A stretch of DNA of 64,000 nucleotides from a virus. The stretch is from the IMG/VR virus record IMGVR_UViG_3300017786_003484, positions 180,433-244,432 of that record, one strand, 5' to 3'. The translations under genes were made by a program, and so were the position numbers. The notes beneath the pieces were generated by a model. That model worked only from the letters and a program-made list of their open reading frames with translations, made no database searches and was not told where the DNA came from. Shown here piece after piece: positions 57,040 through 61,142 of this stretch (position 1 is its first letter; every line of letters starts with the position of its first letter).

Positions 57040-57068
57040 TTGACCTTTGGACCAACCCATGCTATATT
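57040..57068 (+). promoter_or_regulatory. Early promoter with -35 dyad
   Basis: TTGACC (57040-57045), 17 bases, TATATT (57063-57068), in AAAGGT-TG-ACCTTT, with leader ACAATAAGGAATTAGGAG. Drives the operon that contains the tRNA-Trp-bearing gene. Confidence 0.75.
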
Positions 57069-57101: not shown

Positions 57102-57350
57102 ATGATTAATCCAATTGCAAAAACCGAATATGAAGATGGTGTTATTTGTGCCCAGTTAGAAATACACGAAGGTTTGGATGCAGACTGTATTGAGTTGATC
57201 GAAGACTACATCAATGATGCAGATAAGAAGATGACTAACGGATACAAGAATGCCGCTGGTACTATCTTGAACGATCATTTAGATTTTAATAAAGGATATT
57301 TTGAGACACTTGTTCCTCACTATATCAAATCAAAAGGGGAGAATGTATAA
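57102..57350 (+). CDS. Small early protein, unknown
   Basis: 82 residues, acidic. First gene after the 57040 promoter with AGGAG. The next gene starts on the base after its stop. No family. Confidence 0.65.
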   Translation: MINPIAKTEYEDGVICAQLEIHEGLDADCIELIEDYINDADKKMTNGYKNAAGTILNDHLDFNKGYFETLVPHYIKSKGENV

Positions 57351-57530
57351 ATGATACCTAAAGCACCAAATGTTAAATTTGAAGTCTTCTTAGTTAATTT
57401 TGGCTATGTATGCGGAGCAACTGATACCTTAGAGAAAGCTATCAAGCTGGCTAAGAAAACAGGTTTTCAGTGTAACATTTTCAAATCAAATGATCCATTT
57501 ACTCCGATTAAATGGGTTTCTCCTGTATGA
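57351..57530 (+). CDS. 59-residue early protein
   Basis: A small beta-alpha protein ('FEVFLVNFGYVCGATDTLEK') with a hydrophobic core. Starts on the base after the previous stop; GGGGAG lies upstream. Ends as ATGA in the next gene. Confidence 0.55.
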   Translation: MIPKAPNVKFEVFLVNFGYVCGATDTLEKAIKLAKKTGFQCNIFKSNDPFTPIKWVSPV

Positions 57531-57628
57531 AGCTCTATCCGTTGAAAGATATTTGTTTGGCTACAGTAATTGTTATTGTAGTCGTATTTGGTCAAGACAT
57601 CATCACCTACTTAGGGAGATTTGTATGA
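57527..57628 (+). CDS. 33-residue membrane microprotein
   Basis: A short gene coupled at both ends by ATGA overlaps. It encodes a single membrane helix ('ICLATVIVIVVVFGQDIITY'). The coupling chain supports translation. Confidence 0.5.
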   Translation: MKLYPLKDICLATVIVIVVVFGQDIITYLGRFV

Positions 57629-58029
57629 CAATGCATTTAGTTGGTCCTTATATGACCACAACAGTTTATAGTCGTAAGAAAAGTAAGCCTAAGAAGAAAA
57701 CACAGGCTCAACTTCAGTCTGAGGCTAAACACGAAAAGTATCTGCGAAAGATGGGTGTTCATCCTGATCAAAGGAAAGAAGTACAAAATAAGTTTAATAA
57801 AGGGGATAAGTGTTACGGTAGCACGGCTGGCTCCAACCCAGTAAGAGAGGGTTCAATTCCTTCATCCTCTGCCAATTCTTTGTTCTATGATAAAAGTATG
57901 GCTAAGCCTGCACCTAAAGTTTATACAGGTACAGAGATTGTTGGAATTGCTGTCATGCATAAATCTAATGCCGTTCCTATTAGAGGAAAGAAACAAGCTG
58001 AAGAAATAGCTAGAATGCGGAGAGGCTAA
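57625..58029 (+). CDS. Conserved phage protein with an embedded tRNA-Trp gene
   Basis: The 134-codon frame begins with AGGGAG and ATG 57625 and stays open through a complete tRNA-Trp (codons about 59-84). The N-terminus ('HLVGPYMTTTVYSRKKSKPK') and C-terminus ('YTGTEIVGIAVMHKSNAVP') resemble the two ends of one known T4-like phage protein, from memory, with a variable linker between. RNase P cutting of the tRNA would split the mRNA; ATG 57898 could then start a 43-residue C-terminal protein. Function unknown. Confidence 0.6.
   Translation: MTMHLVGPYMTTTVYSRKKSKPKKKTQAQLQSEAKHEKYLRKMGVHPDQRKEVQNKFNKGDKCYGSTAGSNPVREGSIPSSSANSLFYDKSMAKPAPKVYTGTEIVGIAVMHKSNAVPIRGKKQAEEIARMRRG
57801..57874 (+). 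tRNA. tRNA-Trp (CCA) inside a protein gene
   Basis: A complete 74-base tRNA: acceptor AGGGGAT/ATCCTCT (one G-T), D arm GTGT/GCAC, anticodon arm GCTGG-CTCCAAC-CCAGT (anticodon CCA), T arm GAGGG-TTCAATT-CCTTC, discriminator G (as in bacterial tRNA-Trp) and encoded CCA. The surrounding reading frame is uninterrupted. Confidence 0.88.
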
Positions 58030-58670
58030 TGAAGGCTGAAATTCTAGCAAAGAATATTGCAAACGGAAGTGGCGGCCACGGGCTTAAACAAAAGATACTT
58101 GAACAAATCTTTTCTCAGCACGAAGACAAACTTGATGACTTATGTTATACTTTTCAAAAAGTAATTTCACTAAGTGGATCTGATTATTTTAGTACACAAG
58201 ATATCTCTATTGGTGAGCCTCTATCAAGTGACTTTACAGAATGGCATCACATTGATGCCAAGCACGATGCATCTTGGGGATTCAGTAAAAAAGATGCTGG
58301 GTGTTACATATACGGATATTTTCCTTTAAGTAAACCCAAAGGTCCTGCAGACTTTCTTGGCAATGAAGTTATTTACATAGGTGAAAGCAGAGCGGTAAGT
58401 AGAAACTGTATGTTAGGTAGACGCACAGACTTTAAAGGCACTATTCGAAATGAACGCCTTAGCCCTTATGGCTGTGGTACTGCATTTAAAAATAACTATA
58501 AAATTGAGGATCTTGATAATTGTTACCAAGCATATCTTCCAATGCATAGTAGTCTGGTTAAGTCATATGAAATGAGATTGTTGTCAGAGTATTATAAGAA
58601 ATATAAGAAGGTACCTTTATGTAATCCAGCTAATGATTTACATAGAGTTAAATTGTTAACAGATGTATAG
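58029..58670 (+). CDS. Putative GIY-YIG-type nuclease
   Basis: The 213-residue protein has 'AGCYIYGYFPL' and, later, 'EVIYIGESRAVSRNCMLGRR', a GIY...YIG-like pair with an Arg-rich follow-up. This suggests a GIY-YIG nuclease. Spacing between the motifs is longer than usual, so confidence is moderate. It begins in a TAATG overlap with the tRNA-bearing gene. Confidence 0.5.
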   Translation: MKAEILAKNIANGSGGHGLKQKILEQIFSQHEDKLDDLCYTFQKVISLSGSDYFSTQDISIGEPLSSDFTEWHHIDAKHDASWGFSKKDAGCYIYGYFPLSKPKGPADFLGNEVIYIGESRAVSRNCMLGRRTDFKGTIRNERLSPYGCGTAFKNNYKIEDLDNCYQAYLPMHSSLVKSYEMRLLSEYYKKYKKVPLCNPANDLHRVKLLTDV

Positions 58671-60071: not shown

Positions 60072-61142
60072 ATGCGGAAGTTAGAAAAAGAAACCTACTT
60101 GAACCCAAGATGGGGTTCAATGTTTGAAGGAATGTCCTATAACGAAATAATGGACTTGGGATTTTCCTTTTGGCATGCTAAGTTAGTTGAAAGACAATTC
60201 TTTTGCTGGCGTGGTTTAGATTCTAAAATGACTGATGAGCAACTATGGGACTTAGGTACATTGGTTGGTAAGCCTTGGGATACAGAGGGTTATAAAGTTG
60301 GAGCAGATATCTCAGGCTTTAAATTTGATGGAACTACTGACAAAGAAAATGAAGCAGTGGTTGACTCTTCTACAGGACAAGATATTATTGAGGATATGAA
60401 AACCTCAAAGGATAAGCCAGTTAGTTATTTCTTTTCTGGTAATACTATATTTGGTGACAAATATATGGCTTATCATTCAGACCTCCCTCACACATTAGCA
60501 ACTGGACACGAACCTTATCCTGCTAGAGCTTTATTGATGGTTAATATGCCTGAGGATAGTTCAGGTGATACACAATGGCTTGATATGGAAGGTGCTTGGG
60601 AACAAATGACTGATGAAGAAAAGGCTCCTTATCAAGGGCTATTCATTAAACAACAACATATGTATCATCCAGGAAGAAAGTATAGCACATTTCCTTTTCT
60701 CAAACAGAATCCGTGGAATGGTAAATGGTCACCAAGATTAAACTGTATTGCAGGAAATAGAAAAGCAAAGGCTTGGATAGCACCGGGCGGAGTAATTAAA
60801 AAAGGAGTAGGATCTTTAGGTATCAAAGAAGCAAGGCAACTTGTTTTTGATTTATACGATATACTAGAAACTAAAGAACATGCCTTGTATACACATCAAT
60901 GGCAGAATGGTGATATTCTCCTCTACACCAATTGGCCTTCAGTTCATGCTAGAGCCGGAGTTAATATTAACCAAGACAGCGGTGAAAAGAGAGAATTAAA
61001 AAGAATTACTATTGATACACCGTTTCCAGATGATTATATGGTTGACAGAGGTAGTGATTATTTTCCTGCTAGAGTTAAGAATCCTAAATACAGTGAGTTC
61101 CCTCAAATTGAAGAGCCATTTCCAGGCTTCTTTAAAAAGTAA
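60072..61142 (+). CDS. TauD/TfdA-like 2OG-Fe(II) oxygenase
   Basis: The 356-residue protein has H135-x-D137 (YHSDLPH), the TauD-family segment 'ALLMVNMPEDSSGDTQWLDM' and H292 (WPSVHARAG). The C-terminus ('KRITIDTPFPDDYM') supplies the anchoring Arg. Family members hydroxylate small molecules such as sulfonates and amino acids. It has its own late-type box and overlaps the next minus-strand gene by 11 bases. Confidence 0.8.
   Translation: MRKLEKETYLNPRWGSMFEGMSYNEIMDLGFSFWHAKLVERQFFCWRGLDSKMTDEQLWDLGTLVGKPWDTEGYKVGADISGFKFDGTTDKENEAVVDSSTGQDIIEDMKTSKDKPVSYFFSGNTIFGDKYMAYHSDLPHTLATGHEPYPARALLMVNMPEDSSGDTQWLDMEGAWEQMTDEEKAPYQGLFIKQQHMYHPGRKYSTFPFLKQNPWNGKWSPRLNCIAGNRKAKAWIAPGGVIKKGVGSLGIKEARQLVFDLYDILETKEHALYTHQWQNGDILLYTNWPSVHARAGVNINQDSGEKRELKRITIDTPFPDDYMVDRGSDYFPARVKNPKYSEFPQIEEPFPGFFKK

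Follow-up and report, generated by a model that had tools for sequence, protein, structure and literature searches.

Complete tRNA genes were found inside the open reading frame of a phage protein gene, between two conserved parts of the protein. Comparison across relatives shows that the tRNA and protein layers are both under selection at one sequence, as judged from four features: the frame is kept, the flanks change in a coding manner, the tRNAs retain pairing, CCA end and isotype, and tRNA-free relatives have unrelated linkers. Taken as a whole, the findings are very likely best explained by a dual-coding gene, in which the linker DNA is one or more tRNA genes, a single transcript would have alternative fates, and the tRNAs would have arrived by capture and exchange.

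A tRNA-Trp gene inside an open reading frame

The window analysed here is a 64,000-nt stretch of the 244-kb T4-like virus record IMGVR_UViG_3300017786_003484, a record that holds a T4-type major capsid gene. The tRNA-bearing gene occupies 57625–58029 on the + strand, as do the other features described in this section. It encodes 134 aa and has a Shine-Dalgarno-like AGGGAGA (57613–57619) 5 nt before its ATG. Its frame is open through a complete tRNA-Trp at 57801–57874, with the anticodon CCA at 57833–57835 and an encoded CCA end at 57872–57874, which doubles as the code for a linker that the model predicts to be disordered. This nesting, reported in the first-pass annotation, was borne out by ARAGORN, by Rfam (51.1 bits, E 5e-8) and by the 134-codon open frame. 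The tRNA is preceded by a conserved N-terminal part (57625–57800; MTMHLVGPYMTTT.., a basic stretch and two predicted helices) and followed by a conserved C-terminal part (57875–58026; YTG..GIA..HKSN.VP..MRR, a predicted strand-strand-helix), both recognized from alignments, the model and the coding substitution pattern. The two ends had been proposed to come from one phage protein, and indeed residues 1–133 match the full PHROG 27048 profile (positions 1–127 of 127, E 4e-18), with full-length matches to many IMG/VR relatives. A search for function gave no Pfam match for the window protein and no PDB relative better than E 0.2. Peptides predicted from the ORF include CYGSTAGSNPVR, which spans tRNA-coded residues, and EGSIPSSSANSLFYDK.

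The gene lies in an apparent operon. According to the ORF list, ORFs of 82 aa (57102–57350) and 59 aa (57351–57530) lie upstream, the stop of a short ORF (57512–57628) overlaps the start of the tRNA-bearing ORF (ATGA), which makes translational coupling possible, and the ATG of the downstream ORF (58029–58670) overlaps its stop (TAATG).

Recurrence in related phages

Scans of IMG/VR gave hundreds of relatives, and the N and C parts were located in each fetched locus by profile search. A C part was present at 337 loci (designated L below; one contig may give several), and at 325 of these the N and C parts share a single open frame. The remaining 12 comprise five truncated at contig ends, four with a divergent or displaced N part, and three (L016, L134 and L251) that are the same contig, 3300019828_000205; this contig has a frameshift in an N-terminal lysine run, 5' of the tRNAs and near the contig end, while in its tRNAs and C part it agrees with L006.

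After identical genes were dropped, 223 distinct genes remained. Complete tRNAs, one to three per gene, lie at the same place inside the ORF in 86 of them, and the other 137 are tRNA-free. Seven types are embedded: Arg(TCT), Pro(TGG), Met(CAT), Ala(TGC), Thr(TGT), Trp(CCA) and a long-armed tRNA called Ile(TAT). They occur in 16 arrangements, from single to triple (Arg+Met+Pro in L147), and use all three frame registers; no internal stop is present in any of the 86 genes. A sample of the embedded tRNAs, the triple included, was independently confirmed by Rfam. The view of a tRNA in the linker with the frame preserved therefore stands, but the single insertion envisaged in the first-pass annotation does not, since the tRNAs are recurrent, exchangeable, of seven types and up to three per gene.

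Every tRNA-bearing member comes from a metagenome. No cultured carrier of an embedded tRNA was found among 50,697 phage records, and bacterial genomes gave one MAG contig with a relative (L149), which is tRNA-free. The family that shows the arrangement consists of large, mostly uncultured phages. Metagenome assemblies might raise the suspicion of mis-assembly, or of a tRNA that merely happens to be open in one frame. Such an artefact or coincidence is refuted by recurrence over dozens of contigs and many samples, with differing tRNAs and frames and complete openness, and its probability is practically nil.

Openness of the frame beyond chance

The in-frame openness of the embedded tRNAs exceeds chance. 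A set of 100 distinct free-standing tRNAs, drawn from the same viruses and their relatives, gave open frames for 30%, 37% and 9% at offsets 0, 1 and 2. By contrast, none of the 71 distinct embedded tRNAs has a stop in the frame it uses, while the other two frames are open in only 1/71 and 24/71. When matched for isotype and offset, free tRNAs were open in only one of nine cases for Arg(TCT) and none of five for Met (offset 0), with a weaker contrast for Ala (3/4), Pro (3/5) and Trp (3/4). The chance of all being open is ~4e-11 when 18 roughly counted classes are treated as independent; relatedness among the members leaves the count of independent captures uncertain.

Stops are often present in tRNA genes, for example a TAG in the D loop. 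In the embedded tRNA-Arg, one extra D-loop base shifts this TAG out of frame. The same form is found in one free-standing relative, which suggests that it could have been selected from variants already present instead of arising anew. Offsets, tRNA lengths (74–96 nt) and spacers (mostly 4–7 nt in tandems) co-vary, and the frame is always restored.

The protein layer

Substitution rates by codon position were obtained from 26 disjoint pairs of related tRNA-bearing genes. At positions 1, 2 and 3 they were.099,.052 and.241 before the tRNA and.083,.056 and.288 after it, the third position changing ~5 times as fast as the second in both flanks. This coding-type substitution indicates that the sequence is translated on both sides of the tRNA. 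Within the tRNA the rates were flat (.077,.088 and.071).

How the C part comes to be translated was examined through its possible start codons. In 16 of the 86 genes no Met is found from the last tRNA to the conserved YTG motif; there the C part depends on read-through. Because the C part lacks its own start, ribosomes are expected to translate straight across the tRNA. An ATG does lie shortly 3' of the tRNA in the window gene and in 66 of 81 tRNA-bearing relatives examined, and in the window this codon (57898–57900, + strand) had been proposed as a restart. The proposal finds no support: the ATG is not conserved and has no Shine-Dalgarno, and a Shine-Dalgarno-like sequence accompanies just 3 of the 66 internal ATGs compared with 28 of 81 N-terminal starts. 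As a general mechanism, internal restart was rejected on account of the missing Shine-Dalgarno and the non-conserved Met. The frequent internal ATGs would nevertheless suit a gene whose two protein parts are made separately, the tRNA being cut from every transcript and the open frame across it having no function. Such a gene would not need the frame, yet every distinct gene is open, with spacers and tRNA lengths compensating, and tRNA-free relatives encode one continuous protein. Together with the scarcity of Shine-Dalgarno sequences and the 16 genes lacking a Met, this renders separate synthesis of the two parts highly improbable.

AlphaFold2 placed a predicted disordered linker (pLDDT ~49–58) between N-terminal helices and a C-terminal strand-strand-helix, with low global confidence (pTM 0.29). 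The median protein length is 122 aa with one tRNA versus 127 aa without, and the linkers of tRNA-free relatives are of unrelated sequence and about the same length. A single tRNA thus adds no length to the protein but stands in for the linker; calling it an insertion gave its position correctly but wrongly implied added length.

The tRNA layer

Standard pairs make up 98.7% of the pairs in embedded tRNAs versus 96.9% in free ones. All 71 distinct embedded tRNAs encode CCA, compensatory pair changes were found in every embedded isotype, and for 70 of the 71 the nearest free-standing tRNA has the same anticodon. The Ile(TAT) tRNA of L260, for instance, shares 96% identity with a free-standing counterpart in the virus of L001. 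The tRNA sequence changes ~3–4 times more slowly than the third positions of the flanks. In the records checked, which are incomplete, the embedded isotype usually has no free duplicate, the exception being Met in the L005 record.

The tRNA called Ile(TAT) is embedded in L004 (3258–3349), L211 and L260 and free-standing in L082–L085, L292 and L365. It has a long variable arm (class II) and a conserved CAGATTA-like loop, and a UAU anticodon is odd in a long-armed tRNA.

Some embedded tRNAs have decayed. In L143 a tRNA-Pro has fallen below ARAGORN calling while the ORF is intact; L026, L027 and L030 retain a 30-nt end of tRNA-Pro in frame, and L186 a 28-nt end of tRNA-Arg. With the ORF still open in these cases, the tRNA can evidently go while the frame stays. 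The L143 remnant is also the only tRNA-like sequence among the 137 tRNA-free genes, so that, as expected if the first-pass reading was right, tRNA-free relatives do not otherwise have similar sequence at this place. The embedded Thr(TGT) of L009–L011 resembles the tRNA-Arg of its neighbours except for an altered anticodon and several broken pairs, and the ORF is intact; this tRNA is possibly decaying or re-purposed.

These observations bear on whether the tRNA sequences are only captured relics that serve as linker-coding DNA and give no working tRNA. Decayed copies in open ORFs (L143, L186 and L026) and the altered Arg-like tRNAs of L009–L011 would fit such a reading, as would the score of the window's embedded tRNA, at 51 bits the lowest of the four tRNAs in the window. 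A relic, however, would drift like the third positions of the flanks rather than several-fold more slowly, and the high pairing, the universal CCA, the compensatory changes, the flat codon-position pattern and the retention of isotype all argue against it. We consider the relic reading distinctly improbable.

A tree of the flanks, built on 84 columns and poorly resolved, implies 9 changes in tRNA presence and 40 in the exact tRNA set, although only 2 of the changes in presence are required by its strongly supported branches. That tRNAs are exchanged at one site is clear from the different isotypes that stand there in different relatives.

Proposed fates of the transcript

If the gene is dual-coding, each transcript would give rise to either protein or tRNA. 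RNase P and 3' processing are the established route of tRNA maturation; here they would free the tRNA and destroy that copy of the mRNA, while other copies would be translated end to end. The freed tRNAs would act as ordinary phage tRNAs, supplementing those of the host, and tmRNA could rescue the non-stop fragments. Cleavage anywhere at the tRNA would also part the downstream ORF (58029–58670) from the operon leader. As to origin, the unstructured linker may have been a permissive site at which tRNA genes from the phage pool were captured and exchanged by recombination, and the need for the C-terminal part of the protein would eliminate all captures but those in frame and free of stops.

Protein and tRNA probably share one transcript: a consensus scan of the + strand between 56900 and the tRNA found a single promoter-like site, which lies upstream of the operon at 57040–57068 (TTGACC, 17 nt, TATATT). 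This site is weak, as the region yielded two sites where 3.7 would be expected by chance. A separate tRNA promoter was rejected, the scan, which covered the sigma-70-like type, having found no such site between 57100 and 57801; a phage promoter of another kind inside the N-terminal part could make the tRNA separately. A group I or II intron carrying or flanking the tRNA was likewise rejected, the Rfam matches in the window being the four tRNAs only.

The cloverleaf might instead mark the mRNA for cleavage or binding and act as a processing switch for the protein or the downstream gene, with no role in tRNA supply. Cloverleaves are a known kind of RNase P substrate, the operon setting has start and stop codons overlapping on both sides of the gene, and in 43 of 81 tRNA-bearing relatives the stop is overlapped by the following ATG. 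A pure signal would not need seven isotypes, intact anticodons and an identity matching that of free tRNAs, nor two or three tRNAs in a row. Most of the family does without the element (137/223), and the usual lack of a free duplicate of the embedded isotype speaks for tRNA supply, so that a purely regulatory role appears improbable. Dual coding might also be elaborated into an exchangeable tRNA cassette, swapped, stacked or lost under a frame filter, combined with an RNase P switch that ties the amount of protein to the output of tRNA; this combination is conceivable but somewhat doubtful.

A permuted alpha-type tmRNA is encoded by the window's virus (G000:C1:115897-116367). Above the cut-off, such tmRNAs were present in 19 of 30 records, many of them fragmentary; other loci are L051:3394-3726, L032:1884-2216, L033:24-390 and L005:1-385, and in L032, L051 and L055 the tmRNA is directly downstream of the family gene. 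A tmRNA that is a specific partner of embedded tRNAs was rejected as a candidate, and no specific link is claimed, since tRNA-free relatives encode tmRNA too. The alpha type of the phage tmRNA hints at alphaproteobacterial hosts.

Relation to known nested tRNA genes

The embedded tRNAs are complete, lie on the sense strand and keep the frame beyond chance, as is characteristic of a nested tRNA gene in a protein ORF. Such nesting is already known from selC in selB and from animal mitochondria. The closest precedent comes from Alphaproteobacteria, where the tRNA-Sec gene (selC) lies within the selB ORF; its description presents it as the first bacterial case of a tRNA gene nested in a protein ORF (Mukai 2021, PMC8124441). 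The phage locus resembles selB/selC in having a complete same-strand tRNA in an open protein frame, kept across relatives, in its decayed in-frame remnants and in a stop that overlaps the next start. The same competition model, in which tRNA processing leaves a non-stop mRNA, was proposed for selB/selC, likewise as an untested model (PMC8124441). In that system, however, there is one isotype (Sec) and one host gene of matching role, SelB binding tRNA-Sec, and the tRNA part is a dispensable C-terminal extension (PMC8124441). Here the host gene is a phage gene (PHROG 27048), the position is an internal linker between two conserved parts, and there are seven exchangeable isotypes, three frame registers and up to three tandem tRNAs. 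As isotype, host gene and position all differ, the phage locus does not belong to the selB/selC family.

A tRNA-Pro nested in octocoral mitochondrial mutS (PMC11353228) and a tRNA-Lys nested in isopod mitochondrial cox1 (as cited in PMC8124441) are, as far as these accounts describe them, similar in that a tRNA-like gene lies within a protein-coding region. They differ in being single cases from compact organelle genomes with one isotype each, and the portions of the accounts consulted report no exchange of tRNAs at one site. No earlier report of tRNAs inside phage ORFs, or of internal-linker, interchangeable-isotype or tandem tRNAs in one ORF, was found in the openly accessible journal literature. 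Within that scope, what is new is a nested tRNA that is phage-borne, placed in an internal linker, interchangeable in isotype and often tandem. Homologues with the same conserved C-terminal motif occur in Delftia phage PhiW-14 (gp114), Acidovorax phage ACP17, phage C48C1 and Synechococcus phage BUCT-ZZ01, but their N-terminal part differs and there is no tRNA in the gene.

Because a protein frame and a tRNA fold occupy the same bases for at least seven tRNA types and in many sequences, the rules of sharing become measurable, and the locus offers a simple test of how one RNA is divided between translation and tRNA maturation. It would also give phages a route to pick up and keep tRNA genes without intergenic space. 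Genes of this kind would be missed by any annotation pipeline that discards an ORF for overlapping a tRNA, or a tRNA for lying inside an ORF.

Neighbouring genes

SegB is a GIY-YIG homing endonuclease of the T-even phage tRNA region (PMC13096335) and offers a possible route of tRNA capture and spread. The T-even tRNAs, unlike the embedded tRNAs here, are not described in that paper as lying inside a protein frame. Pfam searches near L007 and L004 gave NUMOD3 or SegE-like ORFs, the SegE match being just below the cut-off. By analogy, the GIY-YIG-type ORFs near some loci recall SegB mobility, as a lead only.

Several other neighbours were recorded. The window ORF at 58029–58670 has a GIY-YIG-like motif by eye (YIYGY ... 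VIYIGES), with no Pfam match, and a TauD-family dioxygenase (Pfam E 2.5e-15) lies at 60072–61142; in L122, further 2OG-oxygenase-like ORFs close to the family gene were noted by eye. Just upstream of the family gene in the phage contig of L007, an ORF at 48–1781 has CHASE2 and adenylate/guanylate cyclase domains (Pfam), and an ORF in the same position in the phage contig of L136 (45–998) is similar to it by eye.
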